From NCBI RefSeq assembly GCF_010728725.1, contig NZ_AP022606.1, positions 3,844,001 through 3,908,000 of the forward strand: a DNA stretch of 64,000 nt. Reading direction: 5' to 3'. The notes beneath the pieces are model-generated. The model had not been told where the DNA came from. It saw only the letters and a program-made list of their open reading frames with translations, and searched no databases. Position 1 is the first letter of the stretch, and each line of letters opens with the position of its first letter. Below, piece after piece: positions 11,201-64,000 of this stretch. The DNA is from Mycobacterium branderi. Its GTDB lineage: Bacteria > Actinomycetota > Actinomycetes > Mycobacteriales > Mycobacteriaceae. Made by a program: the position numbers and the translations under genes.

Positions 11201-14200
11201 GCAACCGACTCAAAGCCGCCACCGGGCTGGCACTTTCGCCCACGCTCATCTTCGACTACCCGACACCAAGCAGGCTCGCCAGCTACATGCGCACCGAACT
11301 GGCCGGTGTCCCGCAGGAAATCAAGCAGGTTCCCGCGGTCCGCGCCACGGGCGACGACCCGATCGCGATCGTCGGGATGGCGTGCCGCTTCCCAGGAGGA
11401 GTCAACAGCCCCGACGATTTGTGGGACATGGTGGTTCAGGGTCGCGACGTGCTCACCGAGTTTCCGTCCGACCGTGGCTGGGACCTGGCCGGGCTGTTCA
11501 ACCCCGACCCCGACGTGCCCGGCGCCTGCTACACCCGCACCGGCGGCTTCGTCGACGGCGTCGCCGACTTCGACCCCGGCTTCTTCGGCGTCGCCCCGAG
11601 CGAGGCGCTGGCGATGGACCCCCAGCAGCGCATGTTCCTCGAACTGTCCTGGGAGGCGTTGGAGCGGGCAGGAATTGACCCGACCAGCCTTCGGGGCAGC
11701 GCCACCGGTGTGTTCGCCGGCGTCATGACGCAGGGCTACGGCATGTTCGCCGCCGAACCGGTCGAAGGCTTCCGGCTGACCGGCCAGCTGTCGAGCGTGG
11801 CCTCGGGTCGGGTAGCGTACGTGCTCGGCCTGGAAGGACCCGCGCTGTCGGTGGACACCGCATGCTCGTCGTCTCTGGTCACGCTGCACATGGCGGTGCA
11901 GTCGCTGCGTTCGGGCGAGTGTGACCTGGCGCTGGCCGGCGGCGTCACGATCAACGCCACCCCCGATATCTTCGTGGAATTCAGCCGCTGGCGCGGACTT
12001 TCGCCGGACGGGCGCTGCAAAGCGTTCGCCGGGGCAGCCGACGGCACAGGATTCTCCGAGGGCGGCGGCATGCTGGTCGTCGAGCGGCTCTCGGATGCGC
12101 AGCGGCTGGGCCACCCGGTGCTGGCGGTGGTGCGGGGTTCGGCGGTCAATCAGGACGGCGCCTCCAACGGGCTGACCGCGCCCAACGGCCCGTCGCAGCA
12201 GCGGGTCGTGCGCGCCGCGCTGGCCAGCGCAGGCCTCAGCCCCGCCGACGTGGACGCAGTGGAAGGCCACGGCACGGGCACCACGTTGGGCGATCCCATT
12301 GAGGCGCAGGCACTTTTGGCGACCTACGGGCAGGACCGCAACGAGCCGCTGTGGCTGGGCTCGATCAAGTCGAACATGGGCCACACCCAGGCCGCCGCGG
12401 GCGTGGCGGGCGTGATCAAGATGGTGCAAGCGATGCGCCATCAGATGCTGCCGGCGACATTGCACGTGGACGAACCCAGCCCACACGTGGATTGGTCGGC
12501 GGGACGGATCGCATTGCTCACCGAACCGCAGCCATGGCCGGCCGACGGCAAAGTGCGTCGCGCCGGGATCTCGTCGTTCGGGATCAGCGGCACCAACGCG
12601 CATGTGATCATCGAGGCCGCCCCGCCGGTGGACGAGCCGGACGACGAGCCGGTGAAGCCGCCGGCGGCGCCGTGGGTCGTGTCGGCGAAAACCGGTACCG
12701 CGCTGAGCAAGCAAGCGGCCCAACTGGCCGGCTATATCGACGACCACCCTGAGTTGGAACCTGTCGACGTGGGCTGGTCGCTGGCGGGCCGGTCTACGTT
12801 CGAGCATCGGGCGGTGGTCGTCGGCTGCGACCGGGAGCAACTGCTTGCGGGGCTGGCCGAACTGGCCGACGGCACCCCCGGCGGCACGGTCATTCAGGGC
12901 TGCGCAACGCCGGCCGGCAAGACCGTGTACGTCTTCCCTGGGCAAGGCTCCCAATGGCTGGGCATGGGCATGGGCCTGCACGCCACCTACCCGGTCTTCG
13001 CCGAAGCGTTCAACACCGTCGTCGGCGAACTGGACCGCCATCTGCTGCGACCGCTGCGAGAAGTGATGTGGGGCCATGACGAAACCCTGCTCAACACAAC
13101 GGAGTTCGCGCAGCCCGCGCTGTTCGCACTCGAAGTGGCATTGTTCCGGCTGCTGGAATCCTGGGGCATGCGTCCCGACTACGTGATGGGCCACTCGGTC
13201 GGCGAACTGACCGCCGCCCACGTCGCCGGCGTCCTGTCGCTGGAGAACGCGGCGGTCCTGGTGGCCGCGCGGGGACGTTTCATGCAGGCGTTGCCCGCCG
13301 GCGGCGCCATGATCGCGCTGCAGGCCACCGAAGAGGAAGTGCGGCCGCTGCTCACCGACGACGTCGGCATCGCGGCGATCAACGGACCGACGTCGGTGGT
13401 TGTGTCGGGCGCCCAAGAAGCTGTGGCCGCGGTGGCCGAAAGGCTACGTGGAATGGGCCGCCGCACCCACCGGCTGGCCGTCTCGCATGCCTTCCACTCG
13501 CCGTTGATGGAACCGATGATCGACGAGTTCGCCACGGTTGCAAGCGGACTCGCTCTCGGTCAGCCCGGTATCCCGATCATCTCGAACGTGACCGGGCAGC
13601 TGGCGGGCGACGACTTCGCATCCGCGCAGTATTGGACGACGCACATCCGCCAAGCGGTGCGGTTCGCCGACAGCATCCGCTTCGCGCATTCCGCCGGGGC
13701 CGCCCGCTTCCTCGAGGTGGGCCCCGGCGGCGGGCTGACGGCCTCCATCGACGAATCGCTGTCCGACGCCGACATCGTCTCGGTGCCGATGCTGCGCAAA
13801 GACCGCCCCGAGCCCACCAGCCTGACCACCGCTGCCGCACAGGCTTTCGTGTCCGGCGTCACGGTCAATTGGCGGAAGGTGCTGGGCGGCGGCCGGTTTG
13901 TCGAATTGCCGACGTATGCCTTTGAGCGACGGCGATTCTGGCTTTCCGGCGACGGCGCCGCGGTCGACGCCGCCGGACTGGGATTGGGATCCAGTGAGCA
14001 TCCGCTGCTGGGTGCCGTGGTGGAACTGCCGGCTTCCGGGGGAGTGGTGCTCACCGGTCGGCTCGCACCTGCATCGCAGGCCTGGTTGAACGATCACGCG
14101 ATCGGCGGTGTGGTCCTGTTCCCCGGCGCCGGATTCGTCGAAATGGTGATCCGCGCCGGCGACGAAGTGGGTTGCGGTGTCGTCGAGGAGTTGATGCTGG

Positions 14201-17200
14201 CGGCGCCGCTGGTGTTGCCGGCCACCGGCTCGGTGGCGGTGCAGGTGGTCGTCGGTGGAGCCGACGAGACGGGATCGCGTGCGGTATCAGTGTTCTCCCG
14301 CGCCGACGCCGGTTCTGTCTGGGTATTGCATGCCGAAGGCCAGGTCAGTTCGGGAAGTGTCGAACCGGGCGCGGAGCTGTCGGCCTGGCCGCCGGTGGGT
14401 GCCGCACCGGTCGACGTGACCGGCGTCTACGAGCAGTTGGCCGCCCGCGGCTACGGGTACGGTCCGGCGTTCCAGGGCCTGACCGCGATGTGGCGCCGCG
14501 GCGACGAGTTGTTCGCCGAGGTGTCGTTGCCGGCCAACGCGGGTGTGTCGCCGGCGGGATTCGGTGTGCATCCGGCTGTCTTGGATGCTGCGCTGCACGC
14601 GGTGATCGTGGCCACCAACGGCGCCGATGCGGACGGCGGTGTGCTGGTGCCGTTCTCGTGGCAGCGGGTGTGCCTGCATGCCGCCGGGGCATCGGCCGTG
14701 CGGGCCCGGATCGCGCCGACCGGTCCGTCGTCGGTGTCGGTCGAGCTGGCCGACGGGTTGGGGCTGCCGGTGTTGTCGGTGGCGGCGATGGTGGCCCGGC
14801 CGGTGTCTCAGCAGCAGCTGATGGCGGCGGTGTCGGGCTCGGGCCCGGACCGGTTGTTCGAGGTGAACTGGTCGCCCGCGCCCCTTGGAGCGGATGCCAC
14901 GCCGTCGTACGAAATCTTCGAATCCGCGCCGACGGCAGGGGATCCGCTGACGGCCACCTTCGAACGCGCGCATGCCGCGTTGGCTGCGGTGCAGTCGTGG
15001 GTGTCCCAGCCGGACTCGGGCGTGCTTGTTGTCGTCACTCGCGGCGCGGTGGCGGCGTTGCCGGGCGAAGTCCTCACCGACTTGCCAGGGGCCGCGGTGT
15101 GGGGGCTGGTGCGCTCGGCGCAGACCGAGCACCCCGGCCGCTTGGTGCTCGCCGATGTCGACGGTGACGTCGACGCCGAGGCGATTTTGGCGGCCGGCGA
15201 ACCGCAGGTCGCGGTGCGGGGCGGCGTCACCCATATCGCGCGGGTGCATGGCAGCCGCGCAGTGGACGGGCTGCTGGTGCCGCCGGGCGGTGACCAGCCG
15301 TGGCGGTTAGGGCTTTCCAGCCCAGGCACATTCGAGAACCTGGTGATGGAGCCACTGCCCGACGCCGACGCGCCCTTGGCGTCCGGGCATGTCCGGGTTG
15401 CGGTCGAGGCGATGGCCGCCAACTTCCGCGACGTCATGATCACCCTGGGGCTCTATCCCGACGAGGACGCCGCGATGGGCGTCGAGGCGTCCGGTGTCGT
15501 CGTCGAAATCGGGCCTGGCGTCACCGAATTCGCGGTGGGCGACCGAGTCGCCGGCTTGTTCCCGGAAGGCACCGGAACCGTCGCCACCACCGACCAGCGG
15601 CTGCTGCTGGGAATCCCCACCGGCTGGTCGTCCACCGACGCCGCCACCGTGCCGGTCGTGTTTGCGACGGCGTACTACGCGCTGTCGACGTTGGCCGAGG
15701 TGAGGCCTGGCCAGCGGGTGCTGATTCACGCCGCCGCCGGCGGTGTTGGCATGGCGGCCGTCCAATTGGCTCGGCACTGGGGGTTGGAGGTATTCGCCAC
15801 CGCCAGCCGCGGCAAGTGGGACACCTTGCGCGCCATGGGTTTCGACGACGACCACATCGCCGACTCACGCAGCCTGGACTTCGAGGACAAGTTCCGGTCG
15901 GTGACCGGCGGCCGCGGGATGGACGTGGTGCTCGACTCGCTGGCCGGCGATTTCGTCGACGCCTCGCTGCGGCTGGTCGCCCCGGGCGGCGTGTTCCTGG
16001 AGATGGGCAAGACCGACATCCGCGACCCTCGTGTAATCGCCGAGCACCACGCGCAGGTTCGCTACCGCGCCTTCGACCTGTTCGAAGCCGGGGCGGACCA
16101 CATCCGGCGGATCCTGAGCGAGCTTGCCGCGATGTTCGCGAACAAGTCGCTGAAGCCATTGCCGGTCACCAGGTTTGACATTCGTCGCGCGCCGGCGGCG
16201 TTGCGGTATCTGAGCCAGGCCCGCCACGTCGGCAAGGTCGTGATGACGATGCCTGACGTCTGGGCCGCCGGCACGGTGTTGATCACCGGCGGTACCGGAA
16301 TGGCCGGTTCGGCGCTGGCGCGCCACGTGGTGACACAGCATGGAGTGCGCCACCTGCTGTTGCTCAGCCGCCGCGGCACGGACGCACCGGGTGCAGCCGA
16401 GTTGGCCACGGAGCTTCGCGAAGCCGGCGCACAGGTGCAGGTGGTAGCGTGCGATGCGGCCGACCGCGACGCGCTGGCCACAGTCATCGGCCAACTCGAG
16501 CACCCGCTGTCGGCGGTGTTCCACACGGCCGGGGTGCTCGACGATGCGGTGGTCACGACGCTGACGCCGGAACGGATGGATGCGGTGTTGCGCGCCAAGG
16601 TGACAGCGGCGTGGAATCTGCATGAGCTGACCCGCGACCTGCATGTGTCGGCGTTCGTGATGTTCTCGTCGATGGCCGGCCTGGTGGGCTCCTCCGGACA
16701 GGCCAACTACGCGGCAGCCAACTCGTTCCTCGACGCACTGGCCGCGCACCGGCGCGCTCAGGGCCTGCCCGCCATCTCGCTGGGCTGGGGACTGTGGGAG
16801 CAGGCCAGCGGCATGACCGGCGACCTCGGGACCGTCGACTTCGCCCGGTTCGCGCGCGACGGCATTGTGGCCATGTCTGCCGGCGAAGCTCTTTCGCTGC
16901 TCGACACCGCAATGATTGTCGACGAGCCGTTCCTGCTGCCCGCCCGCATCGACTTCACTGCACTGCGCGCCAAGCACGACTCCGGCACCCTGCCGCCGAT
17001 GTTCGTCGACCTGATCAACGCACCGGCGCGTCGTCAGGTCGACGACTCGCTGGCAGCAGCCAAGTCGAAATCGGCGCTGCTGCAACGCCTGGAAGGGTTG
17101 GCGGAAGACGAGCAGCATGCCGTGCTGCTGGATCTGGTGCGCTCGCACATTGCCACCGTGCTGGGCAACACCACGCCCGAGGCCATCGATCCCGACAAGG

Positions 17201-53728: not shown

Positions 53729-53851
53729 GGCTTCAGGATGACAACGCATGCGTCAGTATTCAATCGACGCACGCGGTCGCCCGCTCCCGCATGACCCAAT
53801 GGACACACGCCACGCTATTAAAACCCTGCCCACGCTCTATAGAGCTCTCCC

Positions 53852-54805
53852 TCAGAGTGCTCGTAGGCCACTGAGGGTCCTTCGTATCAGTTCACGTCGT
53901 TCGTCGATTGCCATCGAGTCAGCGGGGGGTGCGTGCACCCGCAAATAACCTTGTGTCACCAGATCACCGACCAGGAACCGCGTCGCACCGAGCGGCAAGG
54001 ACAGACGAGCGGCGATCTCTGCGACCGAGGGGCTGTGCACACAACACGTCAGGATCTGGCCGCGCACATCATTTCTCCGCCAGCGCGGCGGCTTCGCTGT
54101 GGTGTCGAGCGCTTCGACCGGAGCGTCGAGTGGCAGTTCGACGTCGGAGTCGGTACGGCCTCCCGTCAGTGTGTATGGCCGGACCAGGCTCGGCTCGTCC
54201 GCGGTTTCCGGATCCGTAAACCACTCGTCGGTCGGTTCGTCCATGGCCTCGTGGACATGTGGCGAACGATGCGGCTTGTGGTTCTGCAAGAACCGCAGGG
54301 CCTGGTCGGCGTGCACCGATGCGCGCAGTTCGCTGGACACGACTTTGAGGATGGTGCGGTCGGTGTCGATGACGAATGTGGCCCGTCTGACCGGGAGCAG
54401 CCGAGCCAGCAGGCCACGGCGTCGGGTGTGTCGGCGACGCCGGGCCGCGTCACGCGCCACGAAGGATCTCCGCAGCCTGGCGAGTCTGCCCCGGCGCACC
54501 CCGAACAGCTCGGACACCACGCCGTCGGCGTCAGAGAGCAGTGGATAGTCGAACGCGCGCTGTTGGGCGAAGTGGGCCTGCTTGTCGACGGTGTCGGTGC
54601 TGATGCCCACCCGCTGGGCGCCCACCGCGGCGAATTCGCTGCTCAGGTCCCGGAAATGACAGGCCTGGGCAGTACAGATCGGTGAGGACGCAAGGGGGAA
54701 GAAGAACAGGACAACCGGCCCTTCGGAAAGGAACGCAGACAGTTTCCGAGGTCGACCGGTGTGGTCATACAGCGTGAAATCAGGCGCCTTCTCGCCCGCG
54801 ATCAT
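53852..54805 (-). CDS. BcpB-type peroxiredoxin fused to a DUF742 domain
   Basis: 317 residues in one uninterrupted frame. Residues 1-185 match the BcpB/AhpC-TSA peroxiredoxin fold: peroxidatic Cys in SSPICTAQACHFRDL, RVGISTD and RATFVIDTD. A roughly 25-residue Arg-rich insertion (ARDAARRRRHTRRRG) follows FGVRRG and is absent from M. tuberculosis BcpB as I recall it. Residues about 200-317 are a DUF742 domain (VRPYTLTGGRT, SPSVAEIAARLSLPLG, VGDLVTQGYLRVH, TLSGLRAL), normally a separate protein of conservon systems beside a roadblock protein and a small GTPase. None of those partners is present here. Start ATG 54805. Confidence 0.85.
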   Translation of the reverse strand: MIAGEKAPDFTLYDHTGRPRKLSAFLSEGPVVLFFFPLASSPICTAQACHFRDLSSEFAAVGAQRVGISTDTVDKQAHFAQQRAFDYPLLSDADGVVSELFGVRRGRLARLRRSFVARDAARRRRHTRRRGLLARLLPVRRATFVIDTDRTILKVVSSELRASVHADQALRFLQNHKPHRSPHVHEAMDEPTDEWFTDPETADEPSLVRPYTLTGGRTDSDVELPLDAPVEALDTTAKPPRWRRNDVRGQILTCCVHSPSVAEIAARLSLPLGATRFLVGDLVTQGYLRVHAPPADSMAIDERRELIRRTLSGLRAL

Positions 54806-55059
54806 CGGCAAAGACTAACGCCGGGAAGCTCAGCGCGACGCCCGACTCGGATAATTCGGTCATCGCCGAGCAGTTACCAGGTGGGAACCGTGATCGGCTC
54901 GGCCACGCCGAGGATGCCGGGAACGATCCGCGGGTCGTTGTTCATTGCGTCGCGCTTCTCAGCAATCCCACGGGCCTGCCGACCGGCGACTCGGTCGTAG
55001 TCTCCTCGGCGGCGACGAAGGGGTGGCGAAGCCGAACACTCGTCTTGCCTAGCGAGCGA

Positions 55060-55488
55060 TTAGCTGCACGGATATTGCCCGTTGAGCCGACAATTCGACG
55101 GTGGCGAGTAGGAACCGCTCAGCACGCCTCTGAAACCACCTGTGGCTGAACCACCCGGTGCAATGACACGATTCCAATTCGCGGGGGTAACCACAAAGTG
55201 CGTGCCATATTGGGTAACGGTGCTATTCCATGCGTGCGAGACGGATTGTCCCGCCGGCATGTCGAATTCAAGCTTCCAATCGCTTAGCGGCACCGTGCTC
55301 GCGTTGGTGATGCTGAAGCGGGCGATGAAACCGGTCTGCCACGTATGTTCCACCGACAACGTCGCCGTGGCTGCAGCCGCATGAGCCACGGGCGTGACGG
55401 CTAGTCCCAGGATGGCAACCATCAATGCCGATGCCGTTATGTGAAGCGCTGTGCGGCAGCGCTTCACATAGTTCTTCAGTCCGGCCAT
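55060..55488 (-). CDS. Secreted family 2 carbohydrate-binding protein, Rv1987 type
   Basis: 142 residues. A signal peptide (residues 1-36, cleavage after VAHA) is followed by a single CBM2 module: ATLSVEHTWQTGFIARFSITN, DWKLEFDMPAGQSVSHAWNST, TPANWNRVIAPGGSATGGFRG, final NCRLNGQYPC. Surface Trp residues at the usual binding-face positions and a Cys near the end fit cellulose or chitin binding. There is no catalytic domain, as in the similar M. tuberculosis Rv1987. A 27-bp hairpin (55441-55467) lies within the signal-peptide codons. It is secreted. Confidence 0.9.
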   Translation of the reverse strand: MAGLKNYVKRCRTALHITASALMVAILGLAVTPVAHAAAATATLSVEHTWQTGFIARFSITNASTVPLSDWKLEFDMPAGQSVSHAWNSTVTQYGTHFVVTPANWNRVIAPGGSATGGFRGVLSGSYSPPSNCRLNGQYPCS

Positions 55489-55556
55489 AGCAGGCAACCC
55501 TAAAACCAGACAGGCGATATCGGCCTTCGCATCGCGGTACGCTGCAGTACCTTTGC

Positions 55557-56396
55557 TCAACTGAGACCGAGATGAAATCTCGGCCCCGGTGATCCCTTGG
55601 GCTGGTATGCGGGACAAAGTGTTTCGAGCCAAGCGTGAATTCGTTCGGCGACAACAGCCCACCCAGGCTCCAGCATCATGTCGTGTCCCATGTTCGGGAA
55701 GATCTCTGCCGGGGCGCCGTATATCGCAGCGGTGCGACGAATTTGGCGCTGAGACACGATGTAGTCGTCGGCAGCTCCCAGTACCAGCATCGGGACACGC
55801 TTGACTCGTTTGGTCTTGACCAAATCGAGAGCGAGCATGTCGAGGAAGCCTCGGTAGCCCTCGTCTTGGAGTCGCTGCTGATACATCTCGACTTGCTCGT
55901 CTGGCGTGGACGCGGAAAACAACAGGACTCGCGCCAGTTCTGGGGTGGCAACCAGCGGGGCCAGCCTCAAAGAGGCGTTGACTTTGGCGAATGGCAGAGG
56001 GTAATCGCGCGCAATGCGCAGGGTCACCCGCAGTACGCCGGTGGGTGGAACGGACGCCAGCAGAACGGCTCCGGCAGCCGTGTGGGCTTCCAGGTATTTC
56101 TGGATGACGAAGCCGCCCATTGAATGCCCGACCAAGATGGGCTGAGTCTGTAATTGCGCCGCTGTCTCGGCGACATCGTCTACGTATTCCCGAAGCCTGG
56201 TCCAGCGCAGCCGCTCCTTGCCGGGGCTTGTGCCGTGCCCGCGAAGGCCCAGGGCGACAGCGCGATAGCCCTTGTCAGCGAAATAGTCCAAGAAGTGCTC
56301 ATTCCAGCACCATGCTCCATGCCAGGAGCCATGAACAAACAGAAGCGGCGACGGGTGCGCTGCACTGCAGGAGCCCTTGTCAATCACCTCACGCAT
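55557..56396 (-). CDS. Alpha/beta hydrolase
   Basis: 279 residues. Oxyanion strand LLFVHGSWHGAWCW near residue 20, nucleophile elbow VGHSMGGFVIQ near 90, acid strand MLVLGAADDYIV near 209 and catalytic His in NMGHDMML near 236. It resembles lysophospholipase/monoacylglycerol-lipase-like hydrolases. It overlaps the PaaK-type ligase by 13 bp and is third in the TetR-led operon, so it may release or process the acyl product of the ligase. The substrate is unknown. Confidence 0.88.
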   Translation of the reverse strand: MREVIDKGSCSAAHPSPLLFVHGSWHGAWCWNEHFLDYFADKGYRAVALGLRGHGTSPGKERLRWTRLREYVDDVAETAAQLQTQPILVGHSMGGFVIQKYLEAHTAAGAVLLASVPPTGVLRVTLRIARDYPLPFAKVNASLRLAPLVATPELARVLLFSASTPDEQVEMYQQRLQDEGYRGFLDMLALDLVKTKRVKRVPMLVLGAADDYIVSQRQIRRTAAIYGAPAEIFPNMGHDMMLEPGWAVVAERIHAWLETLCPAYQPKGSPGPRFHLGLS

Positions 56397-57766
56397 GACG
56401 GCGACTCCCTGACAACCAGCTGGAGCTTGCCACTGGCCTGTCGCTCCAGCCTCGGGCGTCGCGTCACCTCGACGACGGTGTCACTGACGCCAAGTTCGTC
56501 GAGGCGGTCGGCAATTGCCGCGTGAATTCGTTTTTCGAGGTCTGGTGCGGTTCCGCGGGCAACTACGAGCACTTGCAGGCGCGGGCCGCGCTGGATGACC
56601 TGGAACTCGACCACCTCGTGATCGCAGGCGATGACCCCAAACTGCATCGGGTGAACTAGGACAGTCGAGCCGCTCCGCCCCGGCAGACGGAGGACATCGT
56701 CGGTCCTTCCCTCCACGGTGCGAAACCGGCGCAGGGTGCGGCCGCAGCCGCAGGGCTCGCTGTCGATTGTGACCGCATCGAGCAACTCGTACCGGATAAG
56801 CGGCTGCGCCCGATTGGCGAGGTTGGTGATCAACAGTTTCGCGCCTGACTCACCATCGGGGACCGGCCGGCCGTGCTCGTCTACGTTTTCGACGATTGTC
56901 AGGTCCTCAAAAAGGTGTAGACCGCTGTGCATTTCGCAGTCGACGGCGATCAGCCCCTCGGTTGTGGCATATGCATTGAACGGTCGCGCGCCGAACGCCT
57001 GCTCGATGCGGTCGGCCATCTGTGGCGTGAGCATCTCGCTCGAGGTCGACATCGCCGTGGGCGAAATCCGCAGTCGACCGGCCAGCTGCTCCTCCGCGAG
57101 CAGCACCGCAACGGACGGATAGGCGTTGATGAATTGGGGCTGGAACTGGTTGAGTTCCTCGACCAGCCGCGGGACCGGGAGGGTCACCGGCAGCGACAGC
57201 AGCCGGTGCACACCGAAGTCGATCGTCGCGGCCAGCCGTCGGCTCGCGCTGGACGGCGATCCGCCGCCAAGCCACGCGAGGCGCAGCCTGGGAAGCCGGG
57301 GACGGATGCCCACGAACGAGCTGTACCGGAGAAACTGCGCAACATAGGCAGCCCAGTCCGGACGATCAAACACGAAAAGCCCTTTGCGACCTGACGATCC
57401 GCTGGTCGCCAGCACTCGGTAGCGGCCCAAGTACAGCGGATCGCCGGTCAATCCCTCGACGTGGCGAGCCAAATCGTCGCGACGCAGCCGACGGTCGATG
57501 ACGACATCGTCGAAGCGCTCCATCATCGTCGCCTTGTCGAGCATCGGCAGCTGGCCCAATTCGACTGGGCCATCGACACTTCCGATGCGTTCGCGGTAAT
57601 AAGGCGAGTGCATCACCGCGAACCGTACCAGCTCGTCGAGCCGTTTCTGTTGAAAGCTAAGCAGCTGCTCCCGCGGCCACCGCTCTTGATCACTGAGGCG
57701 GCGGGAAAGCTTTGTGGCTGACCAGAAGTCCGCGATGCGCTTGCGCTGATGACTAACGTTCATCAT
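56384..57766 (-). CDS. PaaK/CapK-type adenylate-forming ligase
   Basis: 460 residues of the phenylacetate-CoA ligase-like branch of the ANL superfamily, which activates a carboxylate as an adenylate. Seen: the N-terminal PYYRERIG region, the P-loop-like VLATSGSSGRKGLFVF near residue 117, YATTEGLIAVDC near 268, and the C-terminal EGRTDDVLRLPGRSG hinge near 354. Similar proteins in polysaccharide or lipid clusters may be CoA ligases or acyltransferases. It overlaps the TetR gene by 14 bp and the hydrolase by 13 bp, one operon. The substrate is not predictable. Confidence 0.85.
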   Translation of the reverse strand: MMNVSHQRKRIADFWSATKLSRRLSDQERWPREQLLSFQQKRLDELVRFAVMHSPYYRERIGSVDGPVELGQLPMLDKATMMERFDDVVIDRRLRRDDLARHVEGLTGDPLYLGRYRVLATSGSSGRKGLFVFDRPDWAAYVAQFLRYSSFVGIRPRLPRLRLAWLGGGSPSSASRRLAATIDFGVHRLLSLPVTLPVPRLVEELNQFQPQFINAYPSVAVLLAEEQLAGRLRISPTAMSTSSEMLTPQMADRIEQAFGARPFNAYATTEGLIAVDCEMHSGLHLFEDLTIVENVDEHGRPVPDGESGAKLLITNLANRAQPLIRYELLDAVTIDSEPCGCGRTLRRFRTVEGRTDDVLRLPGRSGSTVLVHPMQFGVIACDHEVVEFQVIQRGPRLQVLVVARGTAPDLEKRIHAAIADRLDELGVSDTVVEVTRRPRLERQASGKLQLVVRESPSCVR

Positions 57767-58382
57767 GTCCCCCGCTCCGCGCCAGGTCGTCCAGAAACAG
57801 GCGATTCATTCGCACCCCGAATTCCGGGTCGACGAGATCCGGCAGAGTCAGCCGCTCGAGCTGCAAACCCAGTTGCATTGCGTACGTCGCGACCGCGAGC
57901 TTTTGCGACTCATCGGGCAATTCGTACCCGTGTTCGCATGCGTGAGCTTCGATCGCTCGTACGAAAGGCTTTTGCGCACGCAGGTGGATCTCGCCGAAGC
58001 GGGCGCGCAGCGCCGGCCGACGGACAGCGTGCGCCCAGAACTCAAAGAACACGGCGAGCCAGCCGTCGTCTCGCCCGCGCCGCCGCAGTACGCGGTCGAT
58101 AACGGCATCCATTCCTTGAGATGCGCCGCCCGCAGCGGCGAGTTGAGCCTCGACCTCGGCGATGCCGCGCGTCGCCCGCCGCTCGTATACGGCGAAGAAC
58201 AGGTCTTCTTTCGACGCGAAATTCGAGTAGACGGCGCCTTTGGTGTAGCCGGCTTCACCGGCGACCCGATCTACCGAAACCGCATGGAAGCCCTCGTCGA
58301 CGAACAGGCGCTCGGCTGCGTCGATGATCCGCTCCCGCGTTTGCTGCTGTTGCTCAACGCGGGAAAGCCGCTTCACTGACAT
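57753..58382 (-). CDS. TetR family regulator of the ligase-hydrolase operon
   Basis: 209 residues. The HTH is ERLFVDEGFHAVSVDRVAGEAGYTKGAVYSNFASKEDLFFAV, split over residues 23-65, followed by a helical ligand domain. It heads a tight operon with the PaaK-type ligase and hydrolase, so it probably represses its own operon and responds to the substrate or product. Two tandem palindromes overlap its start codon (58381-58410). Confidence 0.92.
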   Translation of the reverse strand: MSVKRLSRVEQQQQTRERIIDAAERLFVDEGFHAVSVDRVAGEAGYTKGAVYSNFASKEDLFFAVYERRATRGIAEVEAQLAAAGGASQGMDAVIDRVLRRRGRDDGWLAVFFEFWAHAVRRPALRARFGEIHLRAQKPFVRAIEAHACEHGYELPDESQKLAVATYAMQLGLQLERLTLPDLVDPEFGVRMNRLFLDDLARSGGHDER

Positions 58383-58410
58383 ACCATCGGTATTTTAATA
58401 CCAACGGTAT
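58381..58410. promoter_or_regulatory. Twin palindromic operators before the TetR operon
   Basis: ATACC-ATC-GGTAT (58381-58393) and ATACC-AAC-GGTAT (58398-58410) are two perfect 5-bp-arm palindromes, 17 bp centre to centre, the first overlapping the TetR start codon. The arrangement strongly suggests autoregulation by two TetR dimers. Confidence 0.75.
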
Positions 58411-58506
58411 TTCGACGTCAATGGGTTACCAGGGCAAATGTGCGGCCAACGCACCCTGGCGGCAGAGTCAGCGCCAGGATGAGTGGTTGTGTGGCATAGT
58501 TATGCC

Positions 58507-58743
58507 ATGCGTCGCATACGGTTGAGCACCACCGTTGATGCCAAATTGTTGACCGCTGCGCGCGGTCTGCGGTCGGGAAGCACGGACGCCGCCCTCATCG
58601 ATGAGGCTCTCGACGCCCTGCTAGCTCGTCATCGATCGGCTGAAGTAGATGCGAGTTATGCCGCTTATGACGAGCACCCGGCTGATGAGCCCGACGAGTG
58701 GGGCGACCTGGCCTCGTGGCGGCGAGCCGCTGGCGCGTCGTGA
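58507..58743 (+). CDS. mazE: MazE-type antitoxin
   Basis: 78-residue antitoxin with an N-terminal ribbon-helix-helix-like DNA-binding part ([38 protein letters not shown]) and a C-terminal toxin-binding tail of the mycobacterial MazE type ([21 protein letters not shown]). ATG 58507 is chosen. Its TGA overlaps the GTG of the toxin, so the two are translationally coupled. Confidence 0.85.
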
Positions 58744-59069
58744 CTGCACTGCCGGCACGCGGAGAGGTGTGGTGGTGCGAGATGGCGGAGATCGGCCGAC
58801 GCCCGGTTGTGGTGTTGTCGCGCGACGCGGCGATCCCTCGGCTTCGGCGCACACTCGTCGCTCCGTGCACCACGACCATCCGGGGGCTGGCAAGCGAGGT
58901 CGTCCTTGAACCTGGCCTCGACCCGATCCCCCGGCGTTCGGCGGTGAACCTGGATTCGGTCGAAAGTGTCTCGGTCGCAGTGTTGGTCAGTCGGCTTGGC
59001 CGCCTCGCCGATACCCGGATGCGCGCGATTTGTGCGGCCCTTGAAGTCGCAGTTGATTGTTCAGGTTGA
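58740..59069 (+). CDS. mazF: MazF-type toxin (endoribonuclease)
   Basis: 109 residues. MazF pattern: [24 protein letters not shown] at the start, [17 protein letters not shown] in the middle (RNA-binding loop and catalytic Arg/Thr region), and [20 protein letters not shown] at the end. It cleaves RNA at short sequences when free from antitoxin. The start is GTG 58740, overlapping mazE (GTGA). The pair appears intact, unlike the broken mazF at 48.9 kb. Confidence 0.88.
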
Positions 59070-59139
59070 TACCGGCGCAAGGCGACAAGTTCGGCAGTCA
59101 GTTCGTATCGGCCGCAACGGTTTTGCTCGCACCCGGGTA

Positions 59140-59574
59140 CTAAAGGTCGCCCGTGAAATCAGCGCTGAGCCACCGGTCGGGTCGGATCGTGAACAACACG
59201 TTGTCGGAAGTTTCGAATTCGCGAACGAATGCTCGGCCACCTTCCTCGCCGAGGTAACGGATGGCGATGGCTTCCCGCACGTCCTTCGGGGCCGGTGCCG
59301 CGGTCTCCACCACGGTCCCCTCGACGACCACATACTGGTACGGCGGCTCTTCGCGTTGGACGACCAGCGTGACCGCACCCGCCCGCTCGATGAGCCGAGC
59401 CTTGCGCGACGACGGCGAGGTGCCGATCCGGATGTTCCCTCCCGGCGTGTAGTCGTACCAGATCGGGACACTGGCCGGCGGTCGTCCATCGGCGGCTGCG
59501 ACAGATAGCACCGCCACGTGCTTGTCTGCGAGGAATTCTTGACGTTCGGTTTCGCTGAAACTTTTCACGGCCAC
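59140..59574 (-). CDS. Pyridoxamine 5'-phosphate oxidase-like (PPOX) flavoprotein
   Basis: 144 residues of the split-barrel PPOX/F420-dependent family. Seen: FLADKHVAVLSVAAADGRPPASVPIWYDY at the start (flavin or F420 phosphate-binding strand), TSPSSRKARLIERAGAVTL and the barrel strand YVVVEGTVVET. Mycobacterial members often use F420 or bind heme/biliverdin; this one cannot be assigned. GTG 59574 is the likely start. Divergent from the LCP gene. Confidence 0.85.
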   Translation of the reverse strand: MAVKSFSETERQEFLADKHVAVLSVAAADGRPPASVPIWYDYTPGGNIRIGTSPSSRKARLIERAGAVTLVVQREEPPYQYVVVEGTVVETAAPAPKDVREAIAIRYLGEEGGRAFVREFETSDNVLFTIRPDRWLSADFTGDL

Positions 59575-59651
59575 TGAGAACGCAGTTCCCGGAGTTCTAT
59601 TCCCGCCGCACTGGTTAGAAGCGCCGCGACCTGGCTATTCTCGCTTCTGTC

Positions 59652-61172
59652 ATGACGCATCGAGCGGACGCTCTCAGCGGCCACCGCCGGATAGTGGCCC
59701 TCGCCAAGGCGCTCGCCTTGCTGGGATCGGCCGCGGTGGTCGTCGCGACCGGCATGGGATGGATCACCTACCACGCTGCGTCGACTGGCATCACCACATC
59801 CGAGGCGCTCGCCGCTGAACCCGTTCGCACCGCACCTGACCAGAACATCCTGATCATGGGCCTCGATGGCCGTCGCGACCAACGGGGCCGGCCCTTGCCG
59901 CCAGACATCTATGACGCGCTGCACGCAGGTGGTGAAGATTCCGGCGAAGGCGACGCCGACGCGCTCATCGTGTTGCACCTGCCCGCCGGGGACGCGCCGG
60001 CCACGGCGATCTCGATTCCCCGCGACGACTACGTCGATCTGGCCGGGTGCCCGACCTCAGACTGCCGCGGCAAGATCAAAGAGGCCTACCGGTTCGCTTA
60101 CCAAGAGGTCATGAACGACGGGTCCGACGACGCCGAACCTTCCGCGGCAAAAGAACAGAAGGCGCGTGAGGCTGGCCGCAAAGCCGAAATCCGCACAGTG
60201 AGAAAGTTTTTGGGAATCCCGATCGACCACTTCGTAGAGGTCACTTTGGTCGGGTTCTTTCAAGTCGCCCGCGTGGTCCAACCGATCACGGTGTGCCTGA
60301 ACGAGGACACTTCGGACCGCTACTACTCTGGTGCGGATTTTCATCGAGGGCCCCAACAGATCAGCGCGGACCAAGCAATGGCGTTCGTGCGGCAACGCCG
60401 CGACGCCGCCAACGAGTTGTTCACCGACCTCGACCGAACTCGCCGCCAGCAGGCATTCCTCGTCTCGCTGGTCAACGCCCTGCGCCACAACGGCACATTG
60501 TCGAGCCCTGCGCGGCTGCGCGCCCTGCTCGATGTCGCCAAGCAAAACGTCGCCGTTGACACCGGTTTCGACCTCGACGGTTTCCTGCGCGACGCGTCTG
60601 CGCTCCCAAACCGGCCTGTCACGCTGTACACGTTGCCGGTTACCGACTTCGGTCAAATCTCTGACGGCGAAGACGTCAACTTCATCGACGTAACTACCAT
60701 CCGCTCTATCGTGCACAAATTGGTGTCGCCCGATTCACCCGCGGTGACGCAGACGGCCAGCGCCGCGCAGCCAACCACAGGCAACGTCGTGCTCGACGTC
60801 GTCAACGCTTCGGGCAAGGAAGGCGAGGCCGCCCGACTCGAGAAATCATTGGCGACAAAGCCTTTCACTGAAGGAGCGGCCAGCACCGCCGGCTCCATCA
60901 GCCAGACAAGCACCATCGTCTACGGACCGGGCGCAAAAGCAGCCGCCAACCAGCTCGCCGACAAATTAGGTATCAGCACCACTGCGTCCGACAGCATCGC
61001 CGCCAACACGGTGCAACTAACCGTTGGGACCGATATCGACTACCTCAACGACACATCAGAGTCGCCGGCAACGAGCGTCACCACCGTGTCGGCCACTGGC
61101 ACCGGCACCCAGGAACCGTCACCGACCAACCTCACACGCATGGCCGCCGACAACATCCCCTGCGTGAAATAA
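59652..61172 (+). CDS. LytR-CpsA-Psr family cell-wall ligase
   Basis: 506-residue membrane-anchored protein. A cytosolic basic start and one membrane helix (residues 15-37) precede the LCP domain (70-350), with the catalytic Arg/Asp/Lys motifs ISIPRDDYVDL, GKIKEAYRFAY and QAMAFVRQRRD. The C-terminal region (about 370-460) is a LytR_C domain (VVLDVVNASGKEGEAARL), followed by a Ser/Thr-rich tail. LCP enzymes attach arabinogalactan to peptidoglycan in mycobacteria. It is followed by a convergent lytic transglycosylase gene, a cell-wall context. Confidence 0.92.
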   Translation: MTHRADALSGHRRIVALAKALALLGSAAVVVATGMGWITYHAASTGITTSEALAAEPVRTAPDQNILIMGLDGRRDQRGRPLPPDIYDALHAGGEDSGEGDADALIVLHLPAGDAPATAISIPRDDYVDLAGCPTSDCRGKIKEAYRFAYQEVMNDGSDDAEPSAAKEQKAREAGRKAEIRTVRKFLGIPIDHFVEVTLVGFFQVARVVQPITVCLNEDTSDRYYSGADFHRGPQQISADQAMAFVRQRRDAANELFTDLDRTRRQQAFLVSLVNALRHNGTLSSPARLRALLDVAKQNVAVDTGFDLDGFLRDASALPNRPVTLYTLPVTDFGQISDGEDVNFIDVTTIRSIVHKLVSPDSPAVTQTASAAQPTTGNVVLDVVNASGKEGEAARLEKSLATKPFTEGAASTAGSISQTSTIVYGPGAKAAANQLADKLGISTTASDSIAANTVQLTVGTDIDYLNDTSESPATSVTTVSATGTGTQEPSPTNLTRMAADNIPCVK

Positions 61173-61191
61173 CAAGGCCGCCAACGTCAGT

Positions 61192-62130
61192 TCACTGCGG
61201 ATGGTTAGCCAGATAGTCGGCGACCGGGATCGGCGAGGTTGCGACATAACCGACGGGCAGCAGGACATCGCCGGCGGTCGTGTGGTAGTAGACATCCCAC
61301 CGGTAGTAGTCGGCGAACCTCGCGGGCTCGGCTTCGAGCACCGCGGCGTAGTCGTCGATCGCGCGGACGTACTGGTCCGAGTGGTTGTACCGGAAGAGGG
61401 CATGATCGTGGTCGGCGGCGAAACCGTTGGCGGCGAGGTAGCGACCGGCGGCCATGATGCTGTCGTGCGGTGAGTGGATGTCGCCGCCATCGCCGTATGC
61501 CGCGAACGTCGCAGGCAGAAATTGCATAGGCCCTTGCGCGCCGGCGTCGCTCGTGCCGGCGATGCGGCCGAAACCGGTTTCGACCAGGTTGACGGCCGCA
61601 AGGTAGTTCCAGCCGACGCCGGTCGCCGCTTCGGCTTCGCGGTAGGAACCGAGCAGCTCGTCCGCCGGCGCGGGAGCATCAATCCGCCACGCGGGCAGGG
61701 TGTCCTTCAGTTGGCTCGCGACCATCGCGCTGAGCTGCCGTCGAGCATCGACGTTGCGGTCGTAGACCTCAACCAGCGACGGCGGGATCCGCGGGCGCAC
61801 GACCGCGTCCCACTCAGGATGCCAACCGACCGCGCGGTAGGCCTTTTGCTGCCCGCGCGCGGCCGTCAGCAGCGCGCTCTCCGAGGATGCCGGGTCGCGC
61901 AGCGCTCGCTCGTCGGCAACCAGGTCGTCGGCAAGTTGCACGGGATCCGATGCCAGCCGCCGCTGCGGCGACGGGACCGTCGATGCCGCTGCCTGCTGTG
62001 TCGCGGTCGGCGTCGACGCGCTCGACGACCTGGTCACCCCCGAACACGCGACCACCGCAAACATCACCACGACGGCCGTCAGCGCCCTGCAAACCACCCC
62101 GCCATTGTCGACGACCGAGCTGCTTACCAC
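61192..62130 (-). CDS. Lytic transglycosylase-type lipoprotein
   Basis: 312 residues. The N-terminal signal ends in VVACS (lipobox), then a Ser/Thr-rich spacer. The SLT-like catalytic domain (residues about 165-260) has the catalytic Glu in NLVETGFGRIAG and the supporting AGAQGPMQFLPATFAAYG and HSPHDSIMAAGRYLAANG. It would cleave peptidoglycan glycan strands outside the membrane. GTG 62130 is used as the start, overlapping the stop of the upstream GH172 gene by 7 bp, so the two are co-transcribed. Confidence 0.88.
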   Translation of the reverse strand: MVSSSVVDNGGVVCRALTAVVVMFAVVACSGVTRSSSASTPTATQQAAASTVPSPQRRLASDPVQLADDLVADERALRDPASSESALLTAARGQQKAYRAVGWHPEWDAVVRPRIPPSLVEVYDRNVDARRQLSAMVASQLKDTLPAWRIDAPAPADELLGSYREAEAATGVGWNYLAAVNLVETGFGRIAGTSDAGAQGPMQFLPATFAAYGDGGDIHSPHDSIMAAGRYLAANGFAADHDHALFRYNHSDQYVRAIDDYAAVLEAEPARFADYYRWDVYYHTTAGDVLLPVGYVATSPIPVADYLANHPQ

Positions 62131-64000
62131 CAGGGGGTTTCACTACTTTGCGCGCCCGTCAGCGTGTCCACGTGGTAGCGGCTGGCGGTCCATGGCGGTG
62201 CATCGGCAGTAGGTGCCAGTGTGACAGTGACGCGCTCCTTGCCCGTTGTGAGAAAGGCAGGTACCAGGTACATGTCATCGAGCCAACGGTGTATGCCGTT
62301 GCTGCGGGGCTGTAACCATGTACCGGCGGGAATGCCGTCTATGGCTACGTCGGCCGACTGAAATCCCGCTGCTTGGTCCGACGTGCGGCGCAGCAGGATG
62401 CCGTGGTTGTCCGGGGCGAGTGCGACGTCGAAGGTGGTCGCAGTTTGGGTGGCGTGGACTACCCCCACGACTGGGCGGGTGTCTTCACTGCCCTCGTATT
62501 GGCTGACCAGCAGTTGGTCACTGGCGTCAGCATCGTCGTAGCCGTGCAGGATTCGGCTGACGGGGTCGGTGGGGTTGACGTCGTCGCTCGGTGTGGCGGC
62601 GTCGTCGGGTAGTGCGTAGAGGAAAGCCGTTGAGCTGTAGTCGGGTTGGACCATGTTGCGTTTGCCGTGCTCGATGCCGAATCGGATCGCCGAGTGGTAG
62701 TCGATAGCCTCGGCGAGCATGAGCCGGTAGGCAGCCACGCAGTAGTCTGCGCATCCGCCGGTGGCCGTACGTTGATCCGGCTGTCCGGTGAGCGGATCGC
62801 TGAAGTGCTTGCCGTTCTTGAAATACCAGCCGCCCTCGTAGAAGTCCTCGGTGCCGGTGCCGTACCACTGGGGCGATTCGGCACCGTCGGTGTATACGCG
62901 TTCGGCTCCTTCCAGAAAGTAGGGAGCGTCATCGCTGAACGACGTCCTGATCCGACTACCGTGGATGGTGTGGCTGACGCCAACAAACTTGCCGTGGCCG
63001 TGTTCGTCGGCGAACAACCAGTCCTGACCCACTGTCGTTGGTCCGGCGTGCGAGCGCGCGGTGAAGTAGCCGGCGCGACCACTCGCCAATGCGGGTCCCC
63101 ACTGGGGGTCGGGTGTGATCACGACATCGCTGTCGATACCCGCTACGGGATCGCCCGTCGTATTGACGATGGCGACTTGCGCTGAGCGGGCGAACGGCAT
63201 CGGCCACCACGCCGACAACGACAGCGGCCCCCCGGGCTGCGGGATCGCGGCGAACAGCAGCGATCGCACGTCATTGACGCCCAGGCCTGCACCGAAGAAT
63301 TCGCCAAGGGGCGAGTCGACCCTGGTTTCGCCGTCGAACTCGATCTGCAGCCGCAACCCGGACAGGAGTTGATCCGTCGGCAACCATAGGTGCAGCGCCG
63401 AAACACTCCCTGGCCCAGTCGATTCCGCGATCGTCACGCCATGTCCGGCGGGGAGATCGACGACGCGACTGGTATGCACCGCCGCGGGTGCGGCGGGCTT
63501 GGGGTCGGCGGTGCCCGCGGCGCGGAGCATGGCAACTACGTCGAGCGCGGTATCGGAGCGCGAGAAAGTGGTCACGCCGTCGGCTGTCGAGAAGTGTCGA
63601 TAATCGACGTGGTAGTACTCCAAATTGGACGCGACGCTGATCCGCATCGACTCCCGATACGGCATCGGCACCTTGACGTAAACTCCGCCCGGCGATTGGG
63701 CAGCGTTGGCTACCAGAGGCCATACGAACGGCGCACCCAGCGCTCCATCGACCAACGATTGCAATGGTGCGTCGATCGCCGTCTGTCCATCCAGCTCGAT
63801 GCGGATCGTTCCCAGCGCGGTCACATTGCCGCCATCGCGGGTGAACCAGATCGAATCAATCTCTCCCGCACCGCGATCCTCCGCGATGACACAGCCGGCA
63901 CCCCCGAAAGCCAGACATCCCCCGCTGCCGTTCTTGTTGCCGGTGGAGATGTCGAAATCGCCGCCGCTGCGATCAAAGCTCGAGACCTGCAGGCTTTGCG
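62124..64000 (-). CDS. GH172 (DUF2961) family glycoside hydrolase, 5' end outside the window
   Basis: At least 625 residues, open to the right edge. The codons beyond the GTG at 63824 stay open to base 64000 and encode the usual N-terminal family segment (SSFDRSGGDFDIS, then AGEIDSIWFTRDGG), so that GTG is internal. Two DUF2961 jelly-roll units follow, with WYGTGTEDFYEGGWYF near the catalytic Glu region. GH172 includes difructose-anhydride enzymes and exo-D-arabinofuranosidases active on mycobacterial-type D-arabinan. Together with the downstream transglycosylase and LCP gene, a role in arabinogalactan or lipoarabinomannan turnover is a reasonable inference. No signal peptide can be judged because the start is missing. 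Confidence 0.88.
   Translation of the reverse strand, partial: QSLQVSSFDRSGGDFDISTGNKNGSGGCLAFGGAGCVIAEDRGAGEIDSIWFTRDGGNVTALGTIRIELDGQTAIDAPLQSLVDGALGAPFVWPLVANAAQSPGGVYVKVPMPYRESMRISVASNLEYYHVDYRHFSTADGVTTFSRSDTALDVVAMLRAAGTADPKPAAPAAVHTSRVVDLPAGHGVTIAESTGPGSVSALHLWLPTDQLLSGLRLQIEFDGETRVDSPLGEFFGAGLGVNDVRSLLFAAIPQPGGPLSLSAWWPMPFARSAQVAIVNTTGDPVAGIDSDVVITPDPQWGPALASGRAGYFTARSHAGPTTVGQDWLFADEHGHGKFVGVSHTIHGSRIRTSFSDDAPYFLEGAERVYTDGAESPQWYGTGTEDFYEGGWYFKNGKHFSDPLTGQPDQRTATGGCADYCVAAYRLMLAEAIDYHSAIRFGIEHGKRNMVQPDYSSTAFLYALPDDAATPSDDVNPTDPVSRILHGYDDADASDQLLVSQYEGSEDTRPVVGVVHATQTATTFDVALAPDNHGILLRRTSDQAAGFQSADVAIDGIPAGTWLQPRSNGIHRWLDDMYLVPAFLTTGKERVTVTLAPTADAPPWTASRYHVDTLTGAQSSETPWW

Follow-up and report, generated by a model that had tools for sequence, protein, structure and literature searches.

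A long-loop peroxiredoxin joined in one reading frame to a DUF742 domain of probable conservon origin in Mycobacterium

Introduction

What might a peroxiredoxin have to do with DUF742, the domain of the CvnC proteins of actinobacterial conservons, when both are encoded in a single gene? The question is raised by a reading frame in a 64,000-nucleotide stretch of the Mycobacterium branderi genome (hereafter the window), which a preliminary description, made from the sequence alone, had read as a BcpB-type peroxiredoxin fused in frame to DUF742 and had suggested could link peroxide sensing to a signalling or a DNA/RNA-binding output. PMC13343842 describes what actinobacterial G-protein systems sense as a largely unexplored matter. 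For the mfp conservon, passages of PMC13343842 and PMC13015309 present the roadblock protein MfpD as the GAP and the DUF742 protein MfpC as the GEF (“likely” in one wording) of the GTPase MfpB, and one figure legend of PMC13015309 has the labels reversed with respect to the text (MfpC as GAP, MfpD as GEF). Excerpts of PMC8510531 report matching expression patterns for cvnC8 and cvnD8 mutants, cite the binding of CvnC9 to CvnD9, and place DUF742 in the HTH superfamily with DNA binding proposed as a hypothesis. In 2022 the function of DUF742 was called unclear (PMC9769811, in excerpt).

That a peroxide-reactive enzyme occurs naturally fused to a proposed GEF component points to one concrete conservon input, testable in vitro; if true, a bacterial peroxiredoxin would be hard-wired to a small-GTPase switch, giving peroxide a direct route into G-protein signalling. 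In the open-access literature, a scope that leaves subscription papers and most preprints outside, no report of a peroxiredoxin-DUF742 fusion was found, nor were open-access papers pairing a peroxiredoxin with a conservon or with CvnC; two papers, concerning Leuconostoc and Vibrio, do combine peroxiredoxin with a word mfpC. Within the reach of these searches, a peroxiredoxin-DUF742 architecture with a traceable origin is undescribed.

One reading frame with two domains

The frame begins with an ATG at 54805 on the minus strand and runs without an internal stop to the stop codon at 53854-53852 (Table 1). Pfam places AhpC-TSA (PF00578) at residues 4-152 with 102.2 bits against a cut-off of 26, and DUF742 (PF05331) at residues 203-317 with 100.7 bits against a cut-off of 27, covering positions 2-114 of the 114 in the model. 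The coordinates and both domain calls of the preliminary description were thus right. A conserved internal start that could yield a separate DUF742 product was considered and rejected, since M188 of the window protein falls in a mostly gapped alignment column, where a gap is the commonest state (13 of 35 sequences).

Table 1. Features of the fusion gene and its surroundings in the window
Feature	Position	Strand	Basis
Fusion ORF, long-loop peroxiredoxin + DUF742 (CvnC-type), 317 aa	53852..54805	-	Translation, Pfam, homologs, loci
Peroxiredoxin (BcpB/PrxQ-type) domain, residues 1-175	54281..54805	-	PF00578; best PDB match 5epf by sequence and fold
C44, putative peroxidatic Cys in P37-x-x-x-S41-x-x-C44	54674..54676	-	Invariant in 77/77 aligned sequences and 35/35 fusions
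C49, putative resolving Cys (C_P + 5, PrxQ type)	54659..54661	-	Invariant in 77/77 aligned sequences
Arg-rich insertion of 25 residues, about residues 107-131	54413..54487	-	Length difference to 5epf
Linker, residues 176-202, fast evolving, mostly of low model confidence	54200..54280	-	Codon comparison, model
DUF742 domain, residues 203-317: low-confidence N-terminal arm and winged-helix-like part	53855..54199	-	PF05331, model
Third DUF742 helix (272-284), fusion-specific changes at 274, 275, 277 and 279	53954..53992	-	Alignment of fusion with conservon proteins
Candidate out-of-frame remnant of a conservon GTPase start (VAYEHSEG...), overlapping the DUF742 end	53818..53871	-	By eye, compared with conservon GTPase starts
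TANNNT, -10-like hexamer, -12..-7 from ATG, inside block -20..-1	54812..54817	-	38/38 sequences
Weaker conserved upstream block, CCGAATTaTCCGAG-like, about -53..-40	54845..54858	-	Upstream alignment

In peroxiredoxins the peroxidatic cysteine lies in a P-x3-(T/S)-x2-C motif, and in PrxQ enzymes the resolving cysteine follows it by five residues. On this pattern we take C44 to be the peroxidatic and C49 the resolving cysteine of a PrxQ-type C_P/C_R pair. P37 and S41 are invariant in all 35 fusions, as is C44, so that the peroxidatic cysteine about which the preliminary description had asked is present and conserved; the 77 aligned sequences behind the counts in Table 1 take in unfused peroxiredoxins.

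The closest PDB relative by sequence (1.2e-50) is 5epf, BcpB of M. tuberculosis, which also comes first when the predicted model is compared by fold, with 53% identity and a TM of 0.88 on the target. Fusion and BcpB share fold, core and C_P/C_R spacing, and the fusion differs in its 25-residue Arg-rich insertion and its DUF742 tail. The match to the NCBIfam equivalog PRK09437 scores 89.2 bits, below the cut-off of 140, and ends at residue 103. A BCP-type peroxiredoxin is likewise joined to a partner domain in the peroxiredoxin-nitroreductase fusion enzyme of PDB 4eo3; there the partner is an enzyme, whereas here it is a domain of GTPase-regulator type. In the ten fusion genomes compared, short-loop BcpB-like genes stand apart from the fusion and keep a syntenic place; the one of the window genome, at C1:4290840-4291166, lies at this place and coexists with the fusion.

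In the AlphaFold2 model of the fusion protein (pTM 0.54) the peroxiredoxin core is confident and DUF742 mostly so from about residue 221 (62 for block 291-300), with low confidence in the Arg-rich loop (about 101-140) and in the linker plus DUF742 arm (183-219), where pLDDT is below 50 over most of the stretch. The model has no confident contact between the two domains. The predicted DUF742 helices (247-257, 261-268, 272-284 and 300-316) form a pattern resembling a winged helix, and HTH matches at 260-296 are sub-threshold. A PDB sequence search with the conservon DUF742 of the same genome found no solved DUF742 structure.

Distribution of the fusion

A homolog database search gave 1233 matches, and all of the 120 listed carry both domains, at 80-100% identity. 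Among 40 fusion-type mycobacterial loci taken from species genomes (L004-L042 and L044), 36 are open through both domains, with 64-85% best-segment identity to the query; these include L016, which lacks its 5' end at a contig edge, and L038, which has a short run of unknown bases. Of the other four, L041 runs off the end of its contig, the frame of L039 breaks inside the peroxiredoxin and that of L042 in the linker, and L044 is a fusion pseudogene in Candidatus Mycobacterium methanotrophicum. Across 198 Mycobacterium genomes, 26 have the fusion or remains of it: 23 in one frame, two with a broken frame (G005 and G128, the latter seemingly the same assembly as L042) and one partial (G147). A further genome (G013) has a fusion fragment at a contig edge. 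The preliminary description had proposed looking for the same domain pair in other mycobacteria, with the possibility that homologs would always encode two separate proteins; instead the pair occurs in one frame at those 36 loci. The fusion is a real architecture, neither a chance event nor an assembly error.

In a sample of 401 genomes from 31 genera of the family, four full fusions were seen among the matches listed at E<=1e-40, all in Mycobacterium and none in other genera. By these searches the two-domain protein is conserved, and Mycobacterium is the one genus in which it has been seen so far. Carriage by plasmids or phages was considered and rejected: only three of 72,556 plasmid records and six of 50,697 phage records match the fusion, none over 80% of the query, and therefore no full fusion is found there. 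In some copies the frame is broken in the linker or in DUF742 with the peroxiredoxin intact (L042/G128, P0155, P0179, P0203 and P0216), by real decay or by sequencing error.

Origin of the peroxiredoxin half

The preliminary description had singled out a 25-residue Arg-rich insertion within the peroxiredoxin core as unusual. The insertion is real and of that size, with the 5epf sequence alignment breaking at query residues 111/129 and a segment length difference of 25 residues, and 17 of 38 residues around the loop are Arg (the model predicts a helix at 108-119); it is, however, common to unfused relatives and so not peculiar to this protein. Stand-alone long-loop peroxiredoxins occur in Antrihabitans, in Rhodococcus KRD197 and KRD162, and in MAGs labelled Sciscionella and Pseudonocardiales. 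Two further genera of the family sample (g6 and g16) apparently have them too, to judge solely by alignments that run through the loop without a break. In a tree of 34 peroxiredoxin domains, all long-loop proteins form one group (support 99/96) apart from the short-loop BcpB-type proteins, and the fusions fall inside it, near the stand-alone proteins P0124, P0140 and P0147, which differ from the fusion in lacking DUF742. The fusions themselves are not resolved as a single clade (two changes; bootstrap trees unite them in 10% of cases). On this tree the Arg-rich insertion predates the fusion and marks a long-loop peroxiredoxin clade. The stand-alone proteins, including L043, L045, L054 and those of g6 and g16, look like an Arg-rich subfamily distinct from BcpB.

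The C-terminal tails of P0140 (SPPPREKHRK) and P0124 (SPPVRDKHRK) resemble the first half of the fusion linker (SPHVREKHTD in L005), and in P0147 the residues RRYSLS immediately precede MIVGE, as RYSLP precedes the start of the fusion. These likenesses suggest, without proving it, that the linker tail and the promoter were inherited from an unfused peroxiredoxin ancestor.

Conservon ancestry of the DUF742 half

That no roadblock protein or GTPase accompanies the fusion had been noted in the preliminary description and holds for the window, where conservon roadblock, GTPase and kinase queries from the same genome give no tblastn match at E 1e-4; cvnA-B-C-D synteny is accordingly absent there. 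DUF742 is encoded twice in the genome, in the fusion and in a complete HK-roadblock-DUF742-GTPase conservon near C1:417-420 kb, about 3.5 Mb away; there is exactly one conservon-type GTPase. The two DUF742 domains are 60% identical. An identification of this conservon with mfp was rejected, as the genome has no pentapeptide (PF00805) match.

Twenty unfused DUF742 genes (19 from the better matches across the genus sample, plus that of the window genome) all adjoin kinase, roadblock and GTPase genes. A tree of 39 fusion and 20 conservon rows is split into fusion and conservon DUF742 by one branch (support 99/97), so the DUF742 half probably comes from a mycobacterial conservon and has a single origin. 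Like CvnC and MfpC, the fusion matches PF05331 over its full length; unlike them, it is joined to a peroxiredoxin, lies outside a four-gene operon and has a changed helix 3.

The GTPase gene begins within the end of the DUF742 gene in several of these conservons, among them that of the window genome. The same arrangement is seen in L039, the sole locus with an intact GTPase beside the fusion: a 193-residue protein whose gene overlaps the fusion stop and which is 75% identical to the conservon GTPase of the window genome. Relics of such a gene were sought at the DNA level with 200 shuffles per locus; seven of 37 sequences reached p<=0.01, and six are left when L006, whose stop context differs, is discounted. 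The relic is longer in L005 and short in L016, L010, L012, L018 and L022; since L005, L016 and L039 are metagenome bins, their details call for caution. The window copy retains only the putative overlapping start; beyond its stop no GTPase homology was found, the score there being not above that of shuffles. Taken together with the overlaps, these relics indicate that a CvnD GTPase gene originally lay 3' of the fusion and has since been lost in most copies.

A conservon-type GTPase, called by sequence match, is present in 26 of 26 genomes with the fusion or its remains and in 174 of 198 overall (hypergeometric P 0.027). Among the better genomes (at least 90% complete, at most 5% contaminated) the figures are 23 of 23 and 167 of 185 (P 0.081). 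The co-occurrence is consistent with action on a GTPase encoded elsewhere, but the statistic is weak, and it loses significance when only the better genomes are counted.

Selection and changes since the fusion

A codon comparison of 35 fusion copies gave omega values of 0.14 (residues 1-104) and 0.19 (138-174) for the peroxiredoxin core, 0.38 for the loop (105-137), 0.69 for the linker, and 0.52 and 0.26 for the arm (203-240) and winged-helix part (241-317) of DUF742, in which many positions are invariant in all 35. By these ratios both halves are under purifying selection, with the linker least held and DUF742 less strictly held than the peroxiredoxin.

Four positions of helix 3 distinguish the fusions from the conservon proteins: V274 has become A (35/35 fusions, V in 20/20 conservon proteins), A275 has become T (35/35, A in 19/20), V277 has become F (32/35, V in 20/20) and I279 has become V (34/35, I in 16/20). 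The LVRPYxLTxGR arm is strict in 20/20 conservon DUF742 proteins and in 15/35 fusions, among them the window copy (LVRPYTLTGGR); 27/35 match it loosely and eight not even loosely, so that the arm is often degenerate in the fusion family, the window copy excepted, unlike in conservon CvnC. The changes in helix 3 and the arm argue for a re-tuned partner surface; loss of the conservon GTPase as partner would explain them equally well. C254 is not conserved, and C255, found in 33/35 fusions, is also common in conservon DUF742 (16/20); therefore no fusion-specific Cys that would point to a disulphide relay into DUF742 was found between the 35 fusions and the 20 conservon proteins.

A near-invariant putative promoter at changing locations

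The upstream sequences of the window and of 37 loci, 38 in all, are near-invariant over the 20 bp adjoining the ATG (54806-54825 in the window). The mean top-base frequency is 0.92 there, 0.80 at the third positions of codons 1-30 and 0.49 over -60..-21. The consensus of this block is CCCCGCGTTA(G/C)TCTTTGCCG, directly followed by the ATG; many copies have an in-frame TAG, and the block is therefore not coding. No Shine-Dalgarno-like word (GGAG, GAGG or AGGA) occurs in -20..-4 of the 38 sequences, which, together with the TANNNT hexamer, suggests a leaderless mRNA. A promoter shared with other genes of the window genome was rejected: the exact pattern matches the fusion only, and the ten matches with two mismatches equal the ten of a reversed-pattern control.

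On the upstream side, DNA homology with the window extends no further than 16-183 bp from the gene (median 56; within 80 bp in 34/38); on the downstream side most copies lose it near the stop codon. The neighbourhoods of 42 loci (39 fusion-type, 3 unfused) fall into 28 groups, a number inflated by short loci. In a control with ten genomes, at least two neighbours are shared by 44 of 45 pairs at the place of the BcpB-like gene and by 5 of 45 at that of the fusion, three of the ten fusion stretches being shorter (10-11.6 kb). From these alignments, the near-invariant putative promoter travels with the fusion gene through different neighbourhoods, and a single-gene unit that keeps its promoter while changing place is unusual in itself. 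No empty insertion site was identified among the matches listed for a 3.7 kb query of window DNA in 61 genomes, the flanking genes matching at separate places.

In Mycobacterium sp. MFM001 (L022), positions 9018-14996 share the window block 55060-63998, and the fusion lies beside it in the opposite orientation, an arrangement that suggests either separate insertions or a local inversion.

Possible function

The fusion, its intact catalytic cysteines, the selection on it, the one origin of its DUF742 half and its conservon ancestry are well supported by the comparisons above. Of the output suggested in the preliminary description, what stands is that the fusion is conserved and selected in both halves; for the rest, the best inference is a link from peroxide to signalling, given the reports that DUF742 proteins bind the conservon GTPase and that one of them is its GEF. 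On the strength of these MfpC and CvnC reports and of the conservon ancestry of the DUF742 half, we infer that the fusion may be a peroxide-responsive regulator that acts on a conservon GTPase in trans.

The history would be that a long-loop BcpB/PrxQ-type peroxiredoxin became joined, probably once, through its own C-terminal tail to a conservon CvnC whose CvnD GTPase gene followed, and that most copies then lost the GTPase gene, leaving a solitary gene of about 1 kb with its own, probably leaderless promoter. Peroxide would oxidise C44, and as C44 paired with C49 the protein would unfold locally, as PrxQ enzymes typically do; the tethered DUF742 would then interact differently with the small GTPase of a conservon located elsewhere in the genome, the most likely effect being a shift in GDP/GTP exchange by that GTPase. 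In this way the peroxiredoxin would stand in for the kinase and roadblock protein that provide the input of a normal conservon. This account presumes redox coupling and GTPase binding as well as peroxidase and GEF activity. As a whole, from the origin in a conservon to a redox-controlled DUF742 acting on a GTPase, we hold it tentatively, with the balance tipped slightly against it. Its bolder form, a peroxide-gated GEF that replaces the HK/roadblock input and is passed around the mycobacteria as a mobile plug-in sensor, one gene in size, for the resident conservon GTPase, is doubtful.

Several observations count against the regulatory account. With its arm relaxed and helix 3 changed, the domain may no longer have a conservon GTPase as partner; the DUF742 frame is lost in some copies that keep the peroxiredoxin, and DUF742 evolves faster than the peroxiredoxin; there is no fusion-specific DUF742 Cys and no confident domain contact in the model, the co-occurrence is weak, and the fusions are not one clade in the peroxiredoxin tree. 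The long, fast-evolving and low-confidence linker, the lack of a confident contact and a conserved DUF742 core with a relaxed arm would also suit a targeted peroxidase, in which DUF742 only docks the peroxiredoxin at a conservon complex or at the membrane and peroxide is removed there with no signal passed on. We regard this as unlikely, and the fixed or nearly fixed changes in helix 3 (274 and 275 in 35/35, 277 in 32, 279 in 34) suggest a re-tuned interface over a plain anchor.

A plainer possibility is that the gene encodes an ordinary peroxidase with a decaying DUF742 passenger, as the higher omega of DUF742 (0.26 in the core and 0.52 in the arm, against 0.14-0.19) and the broken DUF742 ends of L042/G128, P0155, P0179, P0203 and P0216 might indicate. 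Yet 36 of 40 loci keep the full frame at 64-85% best-segment identity to the query, omega stays well below 1, and many DUF742 positions are invariant in 35/35, which makes such decay improbable. Little probability is likewise given to redox-controlled binding of nucleic acid, in which the winged-helix-like DUF742 and the Arg-rich loop would bind DNA or RNA and the peroxiredoxin would switch the binding. The winged-helix-like predicted secondary structure, the sub-threshold HTH matches at 260-296, the 17 Arg in 38 residues and the HTH placement with its DNA-binding hypothesis (PMC8510531, in excerpt) fit it; against it, the loop is also found in peroxiredoxins that lack DUF742, and MfpC is reported as a GEF in the passages concerned of PMC13015309.

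Other loci

Locus L081 of Streptomyces sp. DI166 was considered as a case of peroxiredoxin and DUF742 side by side and was rejected, there being no DUF742 match in the locus; from its sequence, a downstream ORF of 792 aa resembles a PAS/phosphatase-type regulator. In the window, positions 55063-55488 on the minus strand encode a small protein with a CBM2 cellulose-binding domain (PF00553), which looks secreted from a reading of its N-terminus.
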